Below, piece by piece: positions 8,561 through 17,683 of a stretch of DNA of 64,000 nt; position 1 is the stretch's first letter; the number at the start of each line of letters is the position of its first letter. Both the position numbers and the translations under genes were made by a program. Below the pieces are notes generated by a model. It made no database searches. It saw only the letters and a program-made list of their open reading frames with translations, and was not told the origin of the DNA. The stretch comes from Lachnospiraceae bacterium (GTDB lineage: Bacteria > Bacillota > Clostridia > Lachnospirales > Lachnospiraceae): NCBI GenBank assembly GCA_011959285.1, contig BLLW01000009.1, forward strand, positions 1 to 64,000. The letters run 5' to 3'.

Positions 8561-9196
8561 TCAATTATAATCCATTTTTCCCAAATAAGGAAGAATATTT
8601 TCAAAAAGCTGCCTTACCACCGGCGCTGCCACCTGTCCCCCGTAATAAACGCCTTGCGGGTTATGAATGATGACGAGTGCAATCACCTGTGGATCATCTG
8701 CCGGTGCAAAACCCACAAAGGAAGCAATATACCTTCCGCTTCCCCTTGGAAGGGTCTGGCTTGTCGCCGTCTTTCCCCCTACTCTTGCTCCCTCTACATA
8801 TCCGTTCTTCCCAGATCCGTTTTCCACTACCTGCTCTAAGATCATCCGCATGGTAGCAGAGGTTTCCTCCGATACAATATGCTCTTTTTCCGGATAAGAG
8901 AACCTTTCAATCTCTGTTCCCTCTCTGTTGGCAGTCATAACTGCAAAATGAGGTGTAATCCTTCTCCCCCCGTTTATAATGGAAGACGCCGTAGTGATCA
9001 GCTGGATAGGAGTAATCTGAAAGGACTGCCCGAAAGACACAGTTGCCAATTCCACCGCCTTCATATCTTCCATTTTATGCATGATCGTCCCCGCCTCTCC
9101 CGGCAAATCCACCCCTGTTTTGTTCAAAAGTCCAAACTGGGTAAAATACTGATAATAATTTTCCACCCCCAGCCGCAGCCCCACCGTAATAAACAC
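8561..9196 (-). CDS. SpoVD-like class B penicillin-binding protein, C-terminal part (split gene)
   Basis: The last 211 residues of a transpeptidase domain, starting at the Val of the SCNPVF block directly after the insertion junction. It carries the third active-site motif as GGKTATSQTLPRG (KTA where many PBPs have KTG) at about residue 135, followed by FVGFAPADDPQ. The first two motifs lie in the N-terminal part at 14243-15361. There is no start codon with a ribosome site here, so this fragment is unlikely to be made alone. Joining the two parts at the shared junction gives one in-frame protein of about 576 residues. No stops or frameshifts have built up, which suggests recent insertion or selection for an intact frame. 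Class B PBP identity is sure; the SpoVD (cortex) rather than FtsI role is inferred from its place after a complete ftsI. Confidence 0.9.
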   Translation of the reverse strand: MFITVGLRLGVENYYQYFTQFGLLNKTGVDLPGEAGTIMHKMEDMKAVELATVSFGQSFQITPIQLITTASSIINGGRRITPHFAVMTANREGTEIERFSYPEKEHIVSEETSATMRMILEQVVENGSGKNGYVEGARVGGKTATSQTLPRGSGRYIASFVGFAPADDPQVIALVIIHNPQGVYYGGQVAAPVVRQLFENILPYLGKMDYN

Positions 9197-9213
9197 TGGG
9201 TTACAGGTGTTTA
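9184..9213. other. Left attachment junction of the integrated element
   Basis: The octamer GGTTACAG (9199-9206) is repeated at 14269-14276. The similarity runs wider, as ATAAA-ACT on one side and TGTT-A on the other. AAACAC (9191-9196) and GTGTTT (9207-9212) form a dyad around the core, as expected of a serine recombinase half-site pair. The recombinase stop codon is 14 bp away. Sequence left of the core belongs to the PBP gene and sequence right of it to the element. Confidence 0.8.
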
Positions 9214-9220
9214 CGTAACT

Positions 9221-10804
9221 TTAATGTATTCCTTTATAAAAAACTTTCTCTCTGCATCTTCCCTCTTCATCAAAGCTAATCAGCAATGCCCCGTCCTTAT
9301 GTACCTCGATCTGATGAACTTGCCTTAAATATTCTTTGATTGCCGCCTTCCTGATCAGCCCCTCTTTCCGAATGACTGCCTCTATCTGTTCAAGACGCAC
9401 CTCATAATTATTATATTGCAGATTGTTCTTTCTTATGCCGTCTATTTTTGCCTCCAGCATTTTTAATCTGCCATCCGTATCTTCGCTGCATCTTTTATAG
9501 TCTTCATCACTGATCACACCATTTAACAGCTTTTCCATCAGCAATTCTTTTTTGGAACGCAGCCTCCTGCGCTCCTTTTCCAGCTTTTTAAGCTCCCCCT
9601 CTCCATTGCGGGCTTCAAATACCCTCTTAAGTGCACGTCTGCTTCCGGCAAGAATAACCCCCTCCTCTTCTCCGCTCCCCCCGCAGTGATGCAGGACTGC
9701 CGTCTCCATACAGGTTAAAAGCGTCTCCTCTGAGAGATGGATATTATCGCATCCATAGGATTTTCCCGCCTCCATCTTCCTTTTGCCTGCCTTTTTTCTC
9801 CCACTTTCCAAAAAGGTAGCACATTTCCACACTACCTTTTTTCTCCCCCCCGAAGTGTAACAGGTTCTATAATAATACCGCCCGCACTCCGCGCACTTAA
9901 GCTTCCTGGTCAGTTCGTACTTTCCCTCTCTTAGCGTATTACAATCGCTCTCTCCCACCTTTCGCTGCGCCGCCCTTTTTTGCAAGACGGCGGTGACTTC
10001 CTCCTGATACTCCTTTGATACAATAGAAGGAAGCGCATCTTCCATCACAATCCATTCCTCCTTTGGCACCTCTTCATATCTTTTGGTATCGAAATTATAA
10101 ACTCTCGTATTCAGAATCATCGTCCCGTGCGCTCTGGGCGTATACAGCATCTTCCTCCACTGCACCTCGGATATCCGCTGTCCCTTCTTCCCTCTTGCAC
10201 CCAGCTCATACAAAATCCGGCTAATGGTGTAAAACCCCTTCCCCTCCTTCGCCAGCGCAAATGCCATCCTGTAATACTCCGCTTCCTCCTCATTGATCTC
10301 ATACCTGTCCTTCTCCACCTTATTCCATCCAAACATATCACAAGTAATGTTACACCCACTCTTCTTCTCCTGTCTCCTTCTGTGAGCATTTTTGATTTTC
10401 TTGGAAAGCTCCCTGCTGAAATCCTCCGCCAAGATTGCTTTGATACCGGAAATCAGATTATCATCGGGGGTATAAAATTTTCCTTCTATATATATATACA
10501 ATCTCAACTGATGCTCCGTAAGTCTGCTCAAGAAAAAGTACCAGTCCTTTGCCGATCGGGTAAGCCTGTCTATGGACTTGATCATAACAATCTCAAATCT
10601 TCCCCTCTCCATATCCTCCAAAAGCCTCTGATACTCGCTGCGCTTATACGCCACCGTCCCGGTCTGGGATTCCACATATTGTTCTGCAATCTCCCACCCT
10701 TTCTTTTCCGCAATCTCCCGGCTCTCAAATACCTGGGTGGCAAGGGCATTCCTCTGACTTTCCTCCTCCGTACTGCACCTGTTATAAATTCCCACTCTTG
10801 CCAC
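9221..10804 (-). CDS. Large serine recombinase (site-specific integrase/excisionase)
   Basis: About 527 residues. The N-terminal resolvase catalytic domain begins VARVGIYNRCSTEEESQ, with nucleophile Ser at about residue 11, followed by the conserved KSIDRLTR block near 80. A recombinase DNA-binding domain follows, with SEVQWRKMLYTPRAHG near 225 marking its usual boundary. A zinc-ribbon region has CAEC and later Cys residues around 320-350, then a long charged coiled coil (about 395-470) and a basic tail. This is the architecture of phage-type integrases and of SpoIVCA-like enzymes. The frame opens at 10873, but GTG at 10804 with AAGGGAG upstream is preferred; it overlaps the end of the small upstream ORF. 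The stop is 14 bp from the left junction, the usual att-adjacent place for an integrase. Confidence 0.93.
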   Translation of the reverse strand: MARVGIYNRCSTEEESQRNALATQVFESREIAEKKGWEIAEQYVESQTGTVAYKRSEYQRLLEDMERGRFEIVMIKSIDRLTRSAKDWYFFLSRLTEHQLRLYIYIEGKFYTPDDNLISGIKAILAEDFSRELSKKIKNAHRRRQEKKSGCNITCDMFGWNKVEKDRYEINEEEAEYYRMAFALAKEGKGFYTISRILYELGARGKKGQRISEVQWRKMLYTPRAHGTMILNTRVYNFDTKRYEEVPKEEWIVMEDALPSIVSKEYQEEVTAVLQKRAAQRKVGESDCNTLREGKYELTRKLKCAECGRYYYRTCYTSGGRKKVVWKCATFLESGRKKAGKRKMEAGKSYGCDNIHLSEETLLTCMETAVLHHCGGSGEEEGVILAGSRRALKRVFEARNGEGELKKLEKERRRLRSKKELLMEKLLNGVISDEDYKRCSEDTDGRLKMLEAKIDGIRKNNLQYNNYEVRLEQIEAVIRKEGLIRKAAIKEYLRQVHQIEVHKDGALLISFDEEGRCREKVFYKGIH

Positions 10805-10976
10805 GCTCCGCTCCCTTCCGCAAAGGGACGCCGGGCTCCAAGGCTCTCTCGTCAACAAGTGACTTTGCCGCATGCAGCTCCGCGGGACTGATCAGGACTC
10901 GCTCTGCTAAAAGATCCAAAAGGTGGAGCTGGATGCGCCTTTGCATTTCATTTCTTTCCATTGTGTTTGATCTCAT
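10782..10976 (-). CDS. Small SHOCT-like protein upstream of the recombinase
   Basis: A 64-residue ORF whose middle, RRIQLHLLDLLAERVLISP, followed by AELHAAKSLV, resembles the short helical SHOCT motif (an LL-x-G/R-x-I-S/T-x-x-E pattern). Similar short proteins are often found before serine recombinases in Firmicutes, to my knowledge. It overlaps the chosen recombinase start by 23 bp, so translation is probably coupled. It could be a directionality or expression factor, but nothing in the sequence proves that. The C-terminal third is Arg/Gly-rich and looks unconstrained. Existence as a protein is moderately likely; function unknown. Confidence 0.5.
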   Translation of the reverse strand: MRSNTMERNEMQRRIQLHLLDLLAERVLISPAELHAAKSLVDERALEPGVPLRKGAERGKSGNL

Positions 10977-11043
10977 GGTGAATTTTACCTGTTAGGTTTT
11001 ATTTTAGTATATTCGGAGAGTGTGTAAATAGACCGCAAGGGTG

Positions 11044-11072
11044 TTGACTTTAGCGCTTTAAAGCTGTATAAT
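11044..11072 (+). promoter_or_regulatory. Near-consensus sigma-A promoter of the ABC transporter
   Basis: TTGACT (11044-11049) and TATAAT (11067-11072) are exactly 17 bp apart and 52 bp before the lipoprotein ATG. The spacer contains AGCGCTTTAAAGCT, partly palindromic, which could be an operator. The promoter belongs to the element and reads away from the recombinase. Confidence 0.8.
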
Positions 11073-11124
11073 TTGATACGCAGTGATTTATTATCATTGT
11101 AATATCTTTTTGGGAGGAAACATT

Positions 11125-12171
11125 ATGAAAAAAGCACTTGTATTATTTTTAACCGCAGTCATGGTCAGCGGTCTTGTTGCATGCGGAAGCCCTGCTCCTG
11201 CCACACAGGAAGCATCCACTTCTGAAAGCAGCACAGAGACAGCCGAAACAGAATCTGCCGAAAACACCGCAGAAGGCTCTGCCGCAGACGGCGGAACTTA
11301 CAAGGTAGGCATCTGCCAGCTCGTACAGCACGAAGCATTAGATGCTGCTACAGAGGGATTTATGGATGCACTGAAGGAAGAGCTTGGCGATCAGGTCACC
11401 TTTGACATCCAGAATGCACAGGGTGATTCCAATACCTGTTCTACCATCATCAACAGCTTTATTTCCAGCGATACCGATTTAATTCTTGCCAATGCGACTC
11501 CTGCCCTGCAGGCCGCTGCAGCAGGAACCAACGAAATTCCCATTCTCGGAACTTCCGTTACAGAATACGGCGTGGCGCTTGATATCGATAACTTCACCGG
11601 AACCGTAGGCGGAAATATTTCCGGTACATCCGATCTTGCTCCCCTTGACGGTCAGGCAGATATGCTGGCAGAATTATTCCCTGATGCAAAGACGGTAGGT
11701 CTGATCTACTGTTCCGCTGAAGCAAATTCACAGTATCAGGTGGATACCATCAAAACATCCTTAGAAGCAAAAGGCTACACCTGTGAATACTATTCTTTCT
11801 CAGATTCCAACGATATTTCCGCCGTTGTGACAAATGCCGCTTCTTCCGTTGATGTGATCTACGTTCCTACCGACAACACAGCGGCTTCCAACGCAGAACT
11901 GATCAACAACATCTGCCTTCCTGCCGGCGTACCGGTAGTTGCAGGCGAAGAAGGAATCTGTGCAGGATGCGGCGTGGCTACTTTATCGATCAGCTACTAT
12001 GATATCGGTGTGGCAACCGGCAAAATGGCTGCAAAGATCCTTGCCGAGGGAGCTGATATCTCCACTATGCCCATCGAATATGCACCTACCTTTACCAAGA
12101 AATATAATGCGGCAAACTGTGAAGCATTGAACATCACCGTTCCCGATGATTACGTGGCAATCGGCGAATAA
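11125..12171 (+). CDS. ABC transporter substrate-binding lipoprotein (TrpX-like family)
   Basis: Secreted, lipid-anchored solute receptor of 348 residues. The signal peptide MKKALVLFLTAVMVSG ends in the lipobox LVAC, followed by a Ser/Thr/Glu-rich linker to about residue 58. The binding domain then starts YKVGICQLVQHEALDAATEG, a hallmark of the ABC.X4/TrpX family (periplasmic-binding-protein type 1 fold). The start at 11125 is set by GGGAGGAA five bases upstream; the frame itself opens at 11083. With the permease and ATPase behind it, the set matches the TrpXYZ type. Characterised or predicted relatives handle aromatic amino acids such as tryptophan or tyrosine, but this ligand cannot be read from sequence. 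It is cargo of the integrated element. Confidence 0.9.
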   Translation: MKKALVLFLTAVMVSGLVACGSPAPATQEASTSESSTETAETESAENTAEGSAADGGTYKVGICQLVQHEALDAATEGFMDALKEELGDQVTFDIQNAQGDSNTCSTIINSFISSDTDLILANATPALQAAAAGTNEIPILGTSVTEYGVALDIDNFTGTVGGNISGTSDLAPLDGQADMLAELFPDAKTVGLIYCSAEANSQYQVDTIKTSLEAKGYTCEYYSFSDSNDISAVVTNAASSVDVIYVPTDNTAASNAELINNICLPAGVPVVAGEEGICAGCGVATLSISYYDIGVATGKMAAKILAEGADISTMPIEYAPTFTKKYNAANCEALNITVPDDYVAIGE

Positions 12172-12205
12172 TCGCCGGCAAAGCGATTTATTGTTTCATA
12201 ACCTA

Positions 12206-12231
12206 CAGCGGGAGAATTTATTCTCTCGCTG
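12206..12231 (+). terminator. Intercistronic hairpin between receptor and permease genes
   Basis: CAGCGGGAGAAT (12206-12217) pairs with ATTCTCTCGCTG (12220-12231), with one G-U pair, and is followed by CTTTTGTTAAATTT. It probably acts as a leaky terminator or 3' stabiliser, giving more receptor than membrane components, as is common in ABC operons. Confidence 0.65.
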
Positions 12232-12297
12232 CTTTTGTTAAATTTAAAACAAGTGCACATCCATCAGTTTACAAATTTTGGATAAACGGAGGTAATC

Positions 12298-13230
12298 ATG
12301 AATATCTTACACTTACTAAATTCCATGCCGGGGACTCTTGCCCAAGGACTTATATGGGGCATCACGGCAATTGGTATCTACATTACATACCGGATTCTCG
12401 ACGTTGCCGATCTGACCGTTGACGGCTCTCTTTGTACCGGCGGCGCTGTCTGTATCATGATGATGGTTTCCGGACAGAATGTTTTTGTTTCCATGCTTGC
12501 AGCCACTTTGGCAGGCATGCTCACCGGACTGGTAACCGGACTCTTTCACACCTTTATGGGGATTCCCGCTATTTTAGCAGGTATTCTCACCCAATTAGGT
12601 CTTTATTCTGTAAACCTAAAGATTATGGGAAAAGCCAATCAGGCAATCAATGTCGATAAATACAATCTTTTGGTTTGTTCCAGATATATCAAAGGCGTGC
12701 CCTTCTATCAAAATACGATTTTTGTCGTTGCCGTTTGTACACTGATACTGGTAGCGCTTCTTTACTGGTTCTTCGGTACAGAGCTTGGATGTGCCCTGCG
12801 GGCAACGGGATGCAACGGCAATATGTCCCGCGCCCAGGGAATCAACACGAATTTCTCCAAAGTGCTGGGACTGATGATCTCAAACGGTCTCGTGGGGCTC
12901 TCCGGCGCATTGCTTGCACAGTATCAGGGATTTGCCGATATCAACATGGGACGCGGTGCCATCGTCATTGGACTTGCCGCAGTCATCATCGGTGAAGCTG
13001 TCTTTAGCCGCATCTTCCACAATTTTGCCCTTAAGCTGGTCAGTGTCGCCTTGGGCTCCATCCTTTACTACATCGTACTTCAGACCGTGGTATGGATGGG
13101 AATCGTAGATACCGACAATCTGAAATTGCTGACCGCTTTGATTGTTGCCGTCTTCCTTGCCATTCCCTACTGGAAGAGCAGATATTTCAGCAAAGCCATC
13201 GTAAAGAAGGGAGGCAGAACCAATGCTTGA
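12298..13230 (+). CDS. ABC transporter permease (TrpY-like family)
   Basis: Membrane subunit of 310 residues with about eight to nine hydrophobic segments, starting MNILHLLNSMPGTLAQGLIWG. The text GIYITYRILDVADLTVDGS is characteristic of the branched-chain-amino-acid-like permease family associated with TrpX receptors. The segment ATGCNGNMSRAQGIN around 175-190 corresponds to the coupling region that contacts the ATPase. It forms the channel for the substrate captured by the upstream lipoprotein. GGAGG lies just before the ATG. It overlaps the ATPase gene by 8 bp, so both are translated together. Substrate unknown. Confidence 0.92.
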   Translation: MNILHLLNSMPGTLAQGLIWGITAIGIYITYRILDVADLTVDGSLCTGGAVCIMMMVSGQNVFVSMLAATLAGMLTGLVTGLFHTFMGIPAILAGILTQLGLYSVNLKIMGKANQAINVDKYNLLVCSRYIKGVPFYQNTIFVVAVCTLILVALLYWFFGTELGCALRATGCNGNMSRAQGINTNFSKVLGLMISNGLVGLSGALLAQYQGFADINMGRGAIVIGLAAVIIGEAVFSRIFHNFALKLVSVALGSILYYIVLQTVVWMGIVDTDNLKLLTALIVAVFLAIPYWKSRYFSKAIVKKGGRTNA

Positions 13231-14017
13231 AATTAAAAATGTCACCAAAGTTTTTAACCCAGGAACCGTAAACGAAAAACTTGCCTTAGACAATTTTTCC
13301 TTAACCCTTGAAGATGGCGACTTTGTCACCGTCATCGGCGGAAACGGCGCGGGAAAATCAACCATGATGAATGCCATTGCCGGCGCATGGACGGTGGATG
13401 CCGGTCAAATCCTAATCGACGGCATCGATGTCACCAAACTTCCCGAGCATAAGCGCGCTAAATTCTTAGGACGTGTCTTCCAAGATCCCATGACCGGCAC
13501 TGCCGCGACTATGGGAATCGAAGAAAACCTTGCACTGGCAAAACGCAGGGGCAATACCCGCTTCCTAACGCCGGGTATCACCAAAAAGGAACGGGAAGAA
13601 TATAAAGAACTCTTAAAAATACTGGATTTAGGGCTTGAAACCCGGCTCACCTCCAAGGTAGGACTTCTATCCGGCGGGCAGCGCCAAGCGCTGACGCTGC
13701 TTATGGCAACCCTCAAGAAGCCCAAGCTCCTTCTTTTAGACGAGCACACCGCCGCCCTTGACCCCAAGACCGCAGCAAAGGTCTTAGAAACCACAGAATA
13801 TATTGTTGGAAAGGACCATCTGACCACCCTGATGATCACTCACAATATGAAAGACGCCATCGTTCACGGAAACCGCCTGATCATGCTGATGGACGGAAAA
13901 GTCATTCTGGATATCAAAGGAGAGGAAAAGAAGCGCCTTACGGTGAAAGATCTCCTGCAGAAATTTGAAGCCGCCAGCGGTGAAGAATTTACCAACGACC
14001 AAGCAATCCTTGGCTAA
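13223..14017 (+). CDS. ABC transporter ATP-binding protein (TrpZ-like family)
   Basis: ATPase of 264 residues that powers the transporter encoded just upstream. Walker A is GGNGAGKST near residues 39-47, the signature is LSGGQRQAL near 152, and Walker B is LLLLDEHTAALDP near 172. The Q-loop and H-loop (MITHNMKD) are in place, so it should be active. The gene starts inside the end of the permease gene. It is the last clear gene before the right junction of the element; no good terminator follows, so read-through towards the antisense strand of the split PBP is possible. Confidence 0.94.
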   Translation: MLEIKNVTKVFNPGTVNEKLALDNFSLTLEDGDFVTVIGGNGAGKSTMMNAIAGAWTVDAGQILIDGIDVTKLPEHKRAKFLGRVFQDPMTGTAATMGIEENLALAKRRGNTRFLTPGITKKEREEYKELLKILDLGLETRLTSKVGLLSGGQRQALTLLMATLKKPKLLLLDEHTAALDPKTAAKVLETTEYIVGKDHLTTLMITHNMKDAIVHGNRLIMLMDGKVILDIKGEEKKRLTVKDLLQKFEAASGEEFTNDQAILG

Positions 14018-14050
14018 AAAACAAGGGAAAAATTTTATAACACCGTACTA

Positions 14051-14161
14051 GTGGTAGTGGCACCAAAGAAAAAGAAAGTGTTGATGATCGATCCAGAAAG
14101 CAACAACAGCTTATATGAAGATGTCCTAAAACTAATCCACATCCGCCGAACAAGCATATGA
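14051..14161 (+). other. Doubtful 36-residue ORF near the right end of the element
   Basis: A GTG-initiated frame runs 14051-14161 and reads as a lysine-rich start followed by LMIDPESNNSLYEDVLKLI and a basic end. There is no ribosome-binding site at a proper distance. The composition looks protein-like, so it may be the degraded end of a lost cargo gene. The rest of 14018-14260 shows no gene that I recognise. Confidence 0.2.
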
Positions 14162-14242
14162 CCAGCCTCGGAGGGCAGGTAAAACAGCCTCGACGCAGGG
14201 CAGGGAGCAGACTGAACACAGGCGACAGCGTATCATATCGTT

Positions 14243-15361
14243 TCAGCTTTGCAGTTCCATAAATACTAGGTTACAGCTGTTCATAGTTGCCTGAATGAAG
14301 TTCTCCGCCCCATGACCGGAAATCTTATGGCATCGTATCCTCCGATCCTCCACCATGATGAAGCCCGGGCAGCTGAACTGATCCTCCGTGGTGACCACAC
14401 CGCCCTCCAAGCCGGCTGCCGCCGTCACAATCTTGAATGTAGATCCCGGCTCATAAGTGTCACTAATACAGCCATTTCTCCACATTCCATTTAATAACTC
14501 CTGTTTTTTTTCTTCTGAAAGCCCTGCTGTGTCCGTCTCCTCCGGCAGAGTGTAAGGCTGGTTTAAATTAAATTCCGGTACATCCACCATTGCCATGAGC
14601 TCTCCGTTCTGGGGATTCATGACGATGATAGACACCCGGTCCGCCTGTTTGGTCTCCATTACCTGCTTCGCCAGCTGGGTAGCATAGCTTTGAATATTCA
14701 TATCCAGGCTCAAATAAAGATCATTTCCGGCAACTGGTTCCACCCTTTCCTCTCCCGCCGCGTCAAGTTCCACTCCTTTTGCATCGGTAATGGTAAGGAT
14801 CATGCCATCTTCCCCTTTTAGGTACTCCTCATACTTTACTTCCAGGCCGATGATTCCCTGATTATCGCCTCCCGTGAATCCCAGCACTTTCGATGCCAGG
14901 GAATCATAGGGGTAATAGCGCTTGTAATCTTCGTCCACCTTAACGCCTTCCAGATTATAAGCCCTGATGGCATCCCCGATCTCTTTATCTACATTGCTTT
15001 TAATTCTTTCTATGGAGGAATACTTTTCTACTCGTCTGCGCACATAATCCTCCGAAAGATCAAGTTCCTTACAAAGGACTTCCACGATCCTGTCAGGATC
15101 CTTGATCTGGTTGTGTATAACAGAAATCGTACAGACGGTCTTATTGTCCGCAATAACGGTCCCGTTCACATCCAGTATCCTTCCTCTTGCCGCTTTAATG
15201 CTCCTCTCCCGTTCGTGAAGTTCCTTTGCCTTTTCCGTGTAGTGGTCTGACTGAAAAACCATCAGATAGACCAGCCGCCCTGCAAGAATGGTGAAGATGA
15301 TCAAGCAGGCAAAAAAAATCGTGACGATCTTTTTTCTGTTATAGGTTTTGTTCTTGACCAT
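14243..15361 (-). CDS. SpoVD-like class B penicillin-binding protein, N-terminal part (split gene)
   Basis: First part of a class B PBP. A short basic cytoplasmic start is followed by one membrane helix (about residues 12-32), a PBP dimerisation domain (RERSIKAARGRILDVNGTVIAD near 50), and the start of the transpeptidase domain with catalytic SxxK as EPGSTFKIVTAAAG near residue 306. The last native residues are MNSCN; after the junction the frame reads eight foreign residues and stops. The rest of the protein is at 8561-9196. Start: the frame opens at 15373, but ATG 15361 has GAGG six bases upstream. That ribosome site lies in the right arm of a hairpin with a following T6 run. Family members crosslink peptidoglycan; SpoVD proteins do so for the spore cortex. 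As it stands, the product lacks two of three catalytic motifs in full context and should be inactive. Confidence 0.9.
   Translation of the reverse strand: MVKNKTYNRKKIVTIFFACLIIFTILAGRLVYLMVFQSDHYTEKAKELHERERSIKAARGRILDVNGTVIADNKTVCTISVIHNQIKDPDRIVEVLCKELDLSEDYVRRRVEKYSSIERIKSNVDKEIGDAIRAYNLEGVKVDEDYKRYYPYDSLASKVLGFTGGDNQGIIGLEVKYEEYLKGEDGMILTITDAKGVELDAAGEERVEPVAGNDLYLSLDMNIQSYATQLAKQVMETKQADRVSIIVMNPQNGELMAMVDVPEFNLNQPYTLPEETDTAGLSEEKKQELLNGMWRNGCISDTYEPGSTFKIVTAAAGLEGGVVTTEDQFSCPGFIMVEDRRIRCHKISGHGAENFIQATMNSCNLVFMELQS
14257..14284. other. Right attachment junction of the integrated element
   Basis: The second copy of GGTTACAG lies at 14269-14276 and shares most positions of the flanking 20-odd bases with the left junction. 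Sequence right of the core is PBP gene (codons for ATMNSC); sequence left of it is element. The hybrid of this side and the left side gives the uninterrupted PBP codons for SCNPVF. Confidence 0.8.
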
Positions 15362-15367
15362 AAAAAA

Positions 15368-15413
15368 CCTCATAGAAAAGGTATTATTATAATCTATTAC
15401 CGATTCTATGAGG
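15368..15413 (-). promoter_or_regulatory. Hairpin with T6 run that covers the ribosome-binding site of the split PBP gene
   Basis: CCTCATAGAA (15368-15377) and TTCTATGAGG (15404-15413) form a perfect 10-bp stem around a 26-base A/T-rich loop. On the minus-strand RNA the second arm contains the GAGG ribosome site, and the next bases are six U's followed by the ATG at 15361. The structure could act as an intrinsic terminator, as a translation block, or both, between ftsI and the downstream PBP gene. Regulation is inference from the structure. Confidence 0.6.
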
Positions 15414-15442
15414 TTATTCTATCAAGATGATTCTTTAGGCGT

Positions 15443-17683
15443 TTACTCTTCCGGCGCCTGCATAGGAGACGGCGACGCCTCTGTCCCTTCTCCGCTTCGT
15501 CCCAGATCATAACTTCCGCCAAATACATGTCCCGTTTCCGGATCCACGTAATCTCCTGTATTGGGATCGACTGCATAGCCGGTAGCCGGGTCAATAGGAA
15601 AGGTGCGCCATACTTCTGTCGGAGCCTGTGGTTCGCTTTCTCCCTCTCCTTCTGTCGTTTCGGGATTCTCCTCACTGGTCGTCCCATCCGGCGAATCGCC
15701 TTCCTCTCCCTCCTCTCCTTCCGGCTCTTCCGAAACAGGAGGGGTCATGATTTCAATCTGCAGTGCTTCAAGCTCTTCTATCTCTTTATCCGAGAGCGGT
15801 TCCGTCATGAAAATACCTTCATAGGGAAGGACTTCCGTGAGAATGCTCCTCACGATTCTGGTTGCAAACTTTGCATCGTCCATAATAGCCCCCGGAACAT
15901 TAGGTCTGTCCACTACCACATAAATCGCTATCTGTGGATCGTCAATAGGCGCATATCCCATAAAAGATACCACATATTCATGGTTTCCGCGAGGCAGGGT
16001 CTCCGCTGTTCCCGTTTTGCCGCCGATTAAGTATCCTGCAGGTCTCGCCGTCTTTCCGGTTCCCTTTTCCCCTGACACTACCAGGTTGCACATCTCCCGC
16101 ACCTTGACCGAAGTGCTTTCGGAAATCGTCTGCTTTAAGATTCTGGGTTCTATATTCTGTACCGTGGCGCCTGACGGACTGACGATCTTGCTTACCAGAT
16201 GCGGTTCATAATAATATCCCCCGTTGATCAGGGAACAGAATCCGCTTATCATCTGAATCATGGTAGCATTATATCCCTGTCCAAAGCTGTTGGTGGCAAG
16301 ATCGGTGGGTCCCATCGTGTCTTTATTAAAGACCACGCTTGCCGTCCTCGCCTCACCAGCCAGATCGATGTTAGTCTTAAGCCCAATGTTAAAAATATGC
16401 TGAAACTGCGTAAAAATATTTACTCCTGTTGCCGAGGCGATGTACATCATATTGACGTTGCATGATCGTTCCACGCCTTCCGCTACAGACAATTCCCCAT
16501 CTCCCCATGTGTTATGGCATTTGATGTCATAATCGCCTACATGGAGTTTTCCGTCACAGTAATATCGCTCTTCGCCGGTGATGCTTCCGCTTTCTATTCC
16601 TGCCGCTACGGTAAAGGGCTTTGAGACGGAACCAGGCTCATAGGTATCACTGATGCAGAAATTTTTCCACAATGCATTCAACTGCCTGTAAAACGTCTCA
16701 TTGTCTTCCTCTATCATCCTCACATTGTCTGCATTGATATATTCCCCTGTTCTTTTCCCTTCCTCATCCAAAACGGGCATACCAATAAGCGCCTGCGTAT
16801 TTCTGGTATCATTCAGATCATAGGCAGGATAACTTGCCATCGCCAGGATTTTTCCGGTATTCACTTCCATGATGATGCATCCCATATTCAAAGCGCCGTA
16901 GCCTTCATGTGCATTGTCATGATACTCTTCATCAAATTTCTTCAGGTATTTTTCTACAATCCTCTGAATATTATTGTCAATGGTGGTAACGATACTATTG
17001 CCATCTTCAGCAGGGATCGTCGTCCTCTGCAGATTAGAATCATCATTGAGATAGCCGTATTCCCTCCCCGGTGTCCCTGAGAGAACATCATTGTAATACT
17101 CTTCCAATCCATAGGAACCTACGTTGTCGCTGGTGGTAAAGCCGATCACATCGCAGGCAAGGCTGTTTCCCGGATAAGTTCTTTTATACTCCTCTTCAAA
17201 CCAGATTCCTCTGACCTTAGAGTCCTCCGCATTCTGCAATTCAATAAATCCCTGTATTTGTTCATAATCTAAGCGTTTTGCAAGCACACGATAACGGGAA
17301 GTGTCCTTATTCGCCGCAATATAGGTGCGCACGTCAGCAGTGTCGATTCCCAGCTGGCTGCGCAGAGCCTCAAGTGTTGGTTCCAAATATTCTTCCTTCT
17401 CCGACACCGCCACCGCATCCAAAATCACATTGTAAACCTTTTCGCTTGTGGCAAGAATGCTTCCGTTTGCATCATAAATCGTGCCTCTTTTCGCCGGAAG
17501 CGTAATGCTGTCATACCTTTGCTGGGAGAGAACCTGCTTCTTGTACTGCTCACCGTTATCACGAGTAATGGCAAACAGTCTGTAGGATAATCCCACAAAA
17601 GCCAGTAGTACACACAGAAACAGTACTACCAGCTTCTTTTGCATTTTAATTGTAAATTTACTGTACTTCTTTTTACTATCCAA
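15443..17683 (-). CDS. ftsI: Division-type class B penicillin-binding protein (FtsI/PbpB)
   Basis: Septal transpeptidase of 746 residues, anchored by one helix at about 14-35. A PBP dimer domain (SITLPAKRGTIYDANGSILA) comes first, then a transpeptidase domain with all three motifs: SVSK near 355, SCN near 408 and GKTGTAETLPRG near 555. After the catalytic domain comes an unusual tail of about 110 residues: first Glu/Gly/Ser-rich, then three tandem octapeptides of the form DPxTGxxV, then a short end. There are no PASTA domains. Partner of FtsW and FtsQ/FtsL in the divisome. It follows ftsL by 12 bp and precedes the split SpoVD-like gene, so the cell keeps one intact class B PBP here. Confidence 0.95.
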   Translation of the reverse strand: MDSKKKYSKFTIKMQKKLVVLFLCVLLAFVGLSYRLFAITRDNGEQYKKQVLSQQRYDSITLPAKRGTIYDANGSILATSEKVYNVILDAVAVSEKEEYLEPTLEALRSQLGIDTADVRTYIAANKDTSRYRVLAKRLDYEQIQGFIELQNAEDSKVRGIWFEEEYKRTYPGNSLACDVIGFTTSDNVGSYGLEEYYNDVLSGTPGREYGYLNDDSNLQRTTIPAEDGNSIVTTIDNNIQRIVEKYLKKFDEEYHDNAHEGYGALNMGCIIMEVNTGKILAMASYPAYDLNDTRNTQALIGMPVLDEEGKRTGEYINADNVRMIEEDNETFYRQLNALWKNFCISDTYEPGSVSKPFTVAAGIESGSITGEERYYCDGKLHVGDYDIKCHNTWGDGELSVAEGVERSCNVNMMYIASATGVNIFTQFQHIFNIGLKTNIDLAGEARTASVVFNKDTMGPTDLATNSFGQGYNATMIQMISGFCSLINGGYYYEPHLVSKIVSPSGATVQNIEPRILKQTISESTSVKVREMCNLVVSGEKGTGKTARPAGYLIGGKTGTAETLPRGNHEYVVSFMGYAPIDDPQIAIYVVVDRPNVPGAIMDDAKFATRIVRSILTEVLPYEGIFMTEPLSDKEIEELEALQIEIMTPPVSEEPEGEEGEEGDSPDGTTSEENPETTEGEGESEPQAPTEVWRTFPIDPATGYAVDPNTGDYVDPETGHVFGGSYDLGRSGEGTEASPSPMQAPEE

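Follow-up and report, generated by a model that had tools for sequence, protein, structure and literature searches.

A serine recombinase element that splits spoVD at its catalytic-motif codons in Lachnospiraceae and is a candidate for excision during sporulation

Sporulation is known to involve programmed DNA rearrangement at single genes of a few Bacilli and Clostridia, mostly through prophage remnants. Intervening elements have been described in sigK, spoVFB, spoVR, spsM, gerE, and yabG (PMC4191935, PMC10747680, PMC5595907). Here, we analyze a stretch of 64,000 nucleotides from a Lachnospiraceae bacterium (assembly GCA_011959285.1, contig BLLW01000009.1, positions 1 to 64,000 of the forward strand; "the window"), in which a 5,070-bp element encoding a large serine recombinase interrupts spoVD, a penicillin-binding protein (PBP) gene. 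We consider it likely that this is a skin-like element whose own serine recombinase excises it from spoVD in the mother cell and so restores the gene.

In skin, which interrupts sigK in Clostridioides difficile and Bacillus subtilis, a large serine recombinase likewise splits a sporulation gene, and the gene is restored in the mother cell. Skin is prophage-like, its target encodes a sigma factor, and its small recombination directionality factor, CD1234, is under the control of sigma-E and SpoIIID (PMC5025042). The element described here instead interrupts the gene for a peptidoglycan enzyme, at the codons of its catalytic motif, and its candidate directionality factor is unrelated to CD1234 by name. 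The gin element in gerE of Bacillus cereus ATCC10987 resembles the spoVD element in having no phage genes, in splitting a sporulation gene, in encoding a serine recombinase and a small factor (GirX in gin, a candidate in the spoVD element), and in its inverted-repeat attachment (att) sites with a predicted AA cleavage dinucleotide (PMC5595907). However, gin is 28.6 kb long, carries three recombinases, and has near-identical copies that suggest recent transfer, whereas the spoVD element comprises 5.07 kb in the window and one recombinase, persists across the genus and more widely, and carries exchangeable metabolic cargo. Excision of gin has been shown (PMC5595907), whereas that of the spoVD element is proposed. 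The elements vfbin (spoVFB), vrin (spoVR), SP-beta (spsM), and yin (yabG) also intervene in sporulation genes but are prophages or prophage-like and occupy other genes, and yin is reported to be unique to one isolate (PMC4191935, PMC10747680). A paper on site-specific large serine recombinases with conserved coding targets describes how many diverse recombinases can share one such site, as here, but there the target is lost and is not restored in development (PMC10083194); its main text, the part searched, has no occurrence of spoVD or Lachnospir.

Literature searches, with subscription papers and supplements outside their scope, returned no intervening element in spoVD. ICEBs1 of B. subtilis can use spoVD by chance as a secondary site, and its excision from there was not detected (PMC3715440). 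Save for that chance site, a first-pass annotation of the window was borne out within the literature searched in stating that this gene and motif are not a described integration site. Anatomy would place the element with those that intervene in sporulation genes; new are the spoVD target, the long vertical persistence, the exchangeable host-type cargo, and the truncated recombinases of some members.

The assembly that holds the window (G000) comprises 4.23 Mb in 317 contigs. The interrupted gene belongs to the dcw (division and cell-wall) cluster, in the order mraZ, rsmH, ftsL, a 746-residue class B PBP, the split PBP, mraY, murD, and an ftsW-like gene. Because this order matches that of B. 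subtilis, in which pbpB is followed by spoVD and spoVD precedes mraY, the split gene is spoVD by position. TIGR02214 (SpoVD) was the best model for each half (323.6 and 230.9 bits; curated cut-off, 688), and the adjoining uninterrupted PBP also matched it (398.5 bits). The name is supported by the location between that PBP gene and mraY, together with the co-occurrence with SpoIVA described below.

Read directly on the minus strand, the element is flanked by two copies of CTGTAACC, one at 14276-14269 on the N-half side, where ATGAACAGCTGTAACC is followed by TAGTATTTATGG, and one at 9206-9199 on the C-half side, where ACACCTGTAACC leads into CAGTGTTTATT. The AA dinucleotides at 14272-14271 and 9202-9201 are 5,070 bp apart. 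The N-half is intact through ATG AAC AGC TGT AA (Met-Asn-Ser-Cys-Asn), and the C-half restarts at the same Asn codon, such that the crossover AA falls inside the codon for the N of the SxN motif. Joining the halves at AA yields one frame, MNSC-N-PVFITVG, of 580 amino acids from the first ATG or 576 from MVKNK. The element itself contains one large serine recombinase (PF00239, PF07508) on the strand of the gene, a small open reading frame (ORF) ahead of it, and, on the opposite strand, a three-gene ATP-binding cassette (ABC) transporter (PF04392, PF02653, PF00005); no phage genes accompany these in the window element. These results agree with the first-pass annotation, which had claimed a 5.07-kb split at the SxN codons, a rejoined frame of about 576 residues, and a serine recombinase and ABC transporter between the halves. 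Coordinates are collected in Table 1.

With the joined protein as the query, 37 genomes of the window's genus were searched. The gene was split at residues 372 to 375 in 17 genomes and in one piece in 16, among which G034 has a TAG. It formed a 606-residue open frame with a small insertion in G019, was cut elsewhere by contig ends in G024, and was not found in the G011 and G012 assemblies. The search for intact alleles in relatives that had been proposed thus returned seamless genes, and all 16 read MNSCNPVFIT over the site at the protein level. The recurrence of the split in 17 genomes, set beside these uniform intact alleles, shows that it did not arise by coincidence. In the split genomes, both halves lay on one contig in 15 cases and on two contigs in G025 and G028; no second intact spoVD was found in any of the 17. 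Beside the N-half were the permease and ATPase genes (17/17), the substrate-binding protein gene (16/17), and the recombinase gene (16/17), whose frame was open in all 16 genomes where it was assembled. In a sample of 397 genomes of the family, the break occurred at this codon in at least five (G000, G001, G100, G158, and G263, the last with the N-half only, at a contig end); this count is a lower bound, for which 15 genomes with odd patterns were inspected closely. A recombinase-alignment scan of 84,980 named species genomes returned 52 loci. At 37 of these, the recombinases were at least 44% identical and the spoVD C-half lay no more than 1.5 kb downstream, revealing the further insertions at SCN codons that had been sought; at least 17 of the 37 are genomes already counted in the other searches. 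The recombinases of the remaining 15 loci were 36 to 41% identical and located elsewhere than spoVD.

Candidate breaks in the SpoVD of G067, G384, G220, G174, G230, G057, G224, and G393, which belong to genera other than that of the window, were rejected as elements: each is a single open frame that carries a small insertion close to residue 280. At L135 (G039:C13:53500-66500), an unrelated element of 8.2 kb interrupts spoVD independently at a different position, near residue 172; by eye, it consists of three ORFs resembling serine recombinases and a SulP-like transporter. L159 (G436), one of the 37 scan loci, is a short contig with the recombinase and a piece of the C-half (86%), while the same bin has an intact spoVD (58%) on another contig; its placement is probably a binning error or contaminant.

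The junctions suggest how the two halves could be rejoined. In the commonest forms, the left junction has ATGAACAGCTGT-AA as its gene half and the right junction has ATAAACACCTGT-AA as its element half, and beyond AA a C(C)GGTGTTTAT-like sequence follows on both sides. The predicted site of the element itself, attP (ATAAACACC-TGTAACCC-GGTGTTTAT in its commonest form), is a near-perfect palindrome centered on AA, as expected of a serine integrase. The likeness of the two ends extends beyond 8 bp, since one arm of this palindrome, at the element end, is a repeat of the gene's AGTNTTTAT; the sequence coding for MNSCNPVFI is a weaker copy of the palindrome. Every locus for which the fetched stretch included both halves (26, of which 14 are from genus genomes already counted) gave, when joined on paper, NSCNPVF in frame with no stop; AA was common to every junction (26/26), and a five-base core, TG(T/C)AA, was present in 19 of 26. 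A recombinase site held in place by the enzyme's own conservation may explain the recurrence of the same site across genera.

Both halves of the split gene are under purifying selection. Using only pairs with synonymous divergence (dS) between 0.15 and 2, the median ratio of nonsynonymous to synonymous divergence (dN/dS) of the N-half was 0.029 in split genomes (19 of 136 pairs) and 0.043 in intact ones (10 of 120 pairs), that of the C-half was 0.039 (121 of 136 pairs) and 0.056 (96 of 120 pairs), respectively, and that of the recombinase was 0.126 (12 of 120 pairs). The halves of a dead gene would be expected to decay as the species diverged, which these have not done. At the 305 codons with an invariant amino acid, overall codon diversity was similar in split (1.08 bits) and intact (1.12 bits) genomes. 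At the junction, however, the split genomes use Ser AGC (16/17), Cys TGT (17/17), Ile ATT (17/17), and Thr ACG (17/17), whereas the same codons are mixed in the 16 intact genomes. The split-intact difference over seven codons at the junction ranked first among 299 codon windows, a rank rather than a probability (5.36 versus 3.0 for the next non-overlapping one). A continuing need for the recombinase to recognize these bases is the simplest cause of the frozen codons.

Across the family, the spoVD-like gene goes with sporulation. Of the 397 genomes, 251 had both a spoVD-like gene (called at E <= 1e-120) and SpoIVA, 133 had neither, and 6 and 7 were discordant (Fisher p ~4e-88, uncorrected for kinship), some of the discordant genomes being incomplete. 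Within the genus, SpoIVA matched in 37 of 37 genomes, over the cut-off in 36, and was kept in all split ones. Upstream of the small ORF, the genus alignment retains a block like ATATT-N13-CATATATT. The spoIVA gene is a sigma-E target in C. difficile (PMC5025042); its promoter in the genus has the form TAATAAA-N14-CATACATT and, in G014 and G016, GCATATT or TTATATT-N13-CATATATT. A sigma-E matrix built from the spoIVA promoters of 20 genus genomes gave a summed score of 167.8 over 33 element upstream regions, compared to a shuffled mean of 12.2 (standard deviation, 19.9; maximum, 63.5), a collective excess that hints at sigma-E and makes sporulation control of the element plausible, although few regions stand out singly (see below).

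The split is old and largely vertical. Nine of 13 tree splits were common to the host and recombinase trees (shuffled mean, 0.35; maximum, 3) and 8 of 13 to the host and cargo trees (shuffled maximum, 3), the latter two trees conflicting at some supported branches; the recombinases of species sharing the split are down to 51% identical. The tree built from MraY and SpoVD requires five changes between split and unsplit states, at least four of them forced by well-supported branches (shuffled mean, 13.9). A history of single origin and one loss was discarded as too simple, given that five changes are needed; gains are indistinguishable from losses. G018 is sister to the intact G006 and G027, and G033 groups with the intact G034 and G036. 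The transporter permease in the element is the only close copy in all 17 split genomes; a close copy lies elsewhere in nine other intact genomes and one at 67% over part of the length in a tenth, G007, whereas no match at E <= 1e-40 was found in the intact G006, G027, G029, G034, and G036. Repeated precise loss would explain both the nested intact genomes and the missing permease, and repeated gain is another possible route to the scattered split state. The recombinase of G021 (L066) groups with those of G100 and G158, from other genera, while its host genes and cargo are those of the window's genus; recombinases have therefore been exchanged at least once inside the element.

During growth, the proposed skin-like element would stay in the chromosome and be copied along with it, with its cargo kept and spoVD silent. 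In sporulation, the recombinase, probably helped by the small upstream protein, would recombine attL with attR at the AA of the Asn codon; the element would leave as a circle, and spoVD would be rebuilt in frame. Excision would take place in the mother cell, as in the known cases, and the spore would keep the split gene because the mother cell dies. Four steps are inferred: that excision happens, that only the mother cell undergoes it, that the small protein takes part, and that sigma-E controls the element. Several observations weigh against this scheme. No excised junction or circle was found, and the joined allele was present in 0 of the 17 split assemblies. The split genomes do not form one clade, given the five state changes. 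A sister recombinase clade (see below) targets an ABC permease gene that is not known as sporulation-specific. The sigma-K model TIGR02846 was matched but passed its cut-off in 0 of 37 genomes, and neither did the B. subtilis control; sigma-K was therefore not used as evidence of a full pathway. A literature search returned no paper on Parablautia sporulation. Only 6 of the 33 promoter regions stand out singly (no more than 3 of 200 shuffles as good), the window's own match is no better than shuffles (130 of 200 as good), and a scan with a sigma-E consensus, mostly no better than shuffles for single elements, was replaced by the matrix. Finally, 8 of 299 codon windows have an entropy as low as the junction's in the split genomes alone, so that it is the split-intact contrast that counts, and the genomes are related, so that ranks of windows are not probabilities.

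The most serious competitor is a stochastic switch or ordinary mobile element, excised at low frequency in growing cells or at any stage, with sporulation completed by cells that have lost it. It would account for the seamless intact species nested among split ones and for the five of them that lack a permease match, as after precise germline loss; mobile forms do exist at the same codon (a relaxase in L166, lengths of 16 to 39 kb), and sigma-E control of the element is unproven. On the other hand, the tree shows few element losses; as the element contains the only close copy of the transporter in all 17 split genomes, losing it often from the germline would carry a cost; and the patterns used found no relative of the recombinase in a viral collection. 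We therefore regard this explanation as unlikely.

That the halves are translated apart and assemble as a two-piece enzyme, with no excision at all, seems very improbable. Both are open, conserved frames, but no start is conserved for the C-half. In 11 of 17 genomes it opens with an in-frame GTG, which by the test applied never has a ribosome-binding site, and only 5 of 17 offer a start farther upstream that does have one. On these grounds, independent translation of the C-half was rejected. The N-half, moreover, ends in short tails that differ among split genomes, and a two-piece enzyme gives no account of synonymous junction codons that are frozen only where the gene is split. Still harder to credit is a recent inactivating insertion into a gene no longer needed, one of the two outcomes that the first-pass annotation had left open. 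The B. subtilis spoVD is dispensable for growth, and by analogy the gene here presumably is too; it is also missing along with SpoIVA in 133 of the 397 family genomes. However, seventeen species share the split, with recombinases as little as 51% identical, the halves are under purifying selection, and SpoIVA is kept in every split genome of the genus. This half of the earlier proposal is thus argued against by the age, vertical descent, and selection of the split gene, whereas its other half, the skin-like switch, gains from the seamless relatives, the selection on both halves, the frozen junction codons, and the SpoIVA link.

Domains, a structure model, and fold matches indicate that the recombinase is a large serine integrase. 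PF00239 and PF07508 were matched in 23 of 23 recombinases and the zinc ribbon PF13408 in 20 of 23; in the window's recombinase, the PF13408 match does not pass E 0.001, yet the cysteines are kept. The structure model (mean predicted local distance difference test score [pLDDT], 79) has long paired helices at residues 402 to 427 and 433 to 464 that form a putative coiled coil. Its top structural matches are DNA-bound serine integrases, with a whole-chain template modeling (TM) score of ~0.27, low because the domains are differently placed. The recombinases of L168, L177, and L179 have only 284 to 287 residues, end at attR, and lack the zinc ribbon and coiled coil. The small ORF, which has the pattern LL-x-x-GLI-x-x-EE, lies directly upstream of the recombinase in 33 of 36 spoVD-type elements examined by eye (L157 and L169, with no start found, were left out) and is missing in exactly these three. 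Its dN/dS is ~0.13 to 0.20 (three pairs), and we regard it as a candidate directionality factor. The coiled coil is where known directionality factors act (PMC5025042), so the joint loss of the small ORF and the coiled coil would fit this role.

At the same codon in other genera, the cargo differs: a glycerol kinase type protein with two flavin adenine dinucleotide (FAD) oxidoreductases in L154 (PF00370, PF01266, PF07992), Hsp70 in L161 (PF00012), MgtE in L179 (PF01769), a sodium:solute symporter in L169 (PF00474), an ABC sugar-type system in L150 (PF13416, PF00528), and a protein without a Pfam match in L158. Element sizes range from 3.4 kb (L169) to 38.7 kb (G437). Large elements with mobilization-type genes occupy the same codon in L156, L163, and L166 and in G435 (15.9 kb), G437 (38.7 kb), and G439; a relaxase (PF03432) was confirmed by Pfam in L166 only. 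The presence of such genes points to integrative mobilizable elements as a possible origin.

A broader reading, which we offer tentatively and with somewhat less than even confidence, is that these loci form an old, mostly vertical family of developmental DNA elimination, for which the spoVD codon serves as a docking site. The recombinase and att sites would persist while host-type cargo is exchanged, the mother cell would delete part of its own metabolism, and the recombinases of fewer than 290 residues would be excisionases free of a directionality factor. If so, programmed rearrangement would be a lasting feature of a major gut family, situated in the gene for a spore-wall enzyme at catalytic-motif codons, and the mother cell would lose host metabolic genes carried by the element. 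Full, minimal, mobile, and lost forms would provide a natural series for the passage from integrase to one-way developmental excisionase. Cultured members among the scanned records are Parablautia intestinalis D8-82, P. muri D42-62, and Lachnospiraceae bacterium 10-1.

Table 1. Coordinates of the split spoVD, the intervening element, and the adjoining PBP gene in the window
Feature	Position	Strand	Basis or comparison
attL: gene arm ATGAACAGCTGT, element arm AACCTAGTATTTAT, crossover AA 14272-14271	14255..14290	-	17-genome alignment
attR: element arm GTAAACACCTGT, gene arm AACCCAGTGTTTATTACG, crossover AA 9202-9201	9185..9215	-	17-genome alignment
spoVD 5' part, residues 1-367 through Cys of SxN (SCN), plus AA of the Asn codon	14271..15373	-	Counterparts 85-98% identical in split and intact genomes
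Element end in frame past the junction (NLVFMELQS, stop); right attP arm, forms attL with the gene	14243..14270	-	
spoVD 3' part, Asn of SxN onward, including KTA motif region, to stop	8561..9202	-	Identity of 88-98% among split genomes
Large serine recombinase, GTG start at 10804	9221..10804	-	Catalytic Ser11 and Arg9 unchanged in an alignment of 13 homologues
Small ORF (MERNEMQRRIQLHLLDLLAERVLIS...) that overlaps the start of the recombinase; directionality factor candidate	10782..10976	-	Putative role
Promoter-like site, GTCTATT-N13-AATATACT	11006..11033	-	Aligns with the sigma-E-like block of relatives; not significant in the window
Cargo: ABC transporter substrate-binding lipoprotein	11083..12171	+	PF04392; TrpX model 232.5 bits, cut-off 390
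Cargo: ABC transporter permease	12298..13230	+	PF02653
Cargo: ABC transporter ATPase	13223..14017	+	PF00005
Uninterrupted class B PBP beside the split gene (pbpB/ftsI position, dcw cluster)	15443..17683	-	

Between the first PBP gene and spoVD lies a terminator-like hairpin (15358-15422, minus strand; -24.2 kcal/mol, z -6.4), which is kept in most of 33 aligned split and intact genomes and would insulate spoVD from the vegetative operon. In the G000 assembly, the serine recombinase family PF07508 is matched 12 times, with three of the matches side by side on contig 33 (G000:C33:14203-20878). The sister recombinase clade, 36 to 41% identical, splits a NitT/TauT-type ABC permease gene at GYLIIYGSQVF|QLNMVITS. 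Among its 15 loci, the N part of the permease was found in 14 and the C part in 9 (L170-L174, L176, L178, L181, and L183), with the recombinase between the parts in 9 of 9; the clade also occurs in G029, G032, G034, and G036. This permease split could represent another switch of this type.

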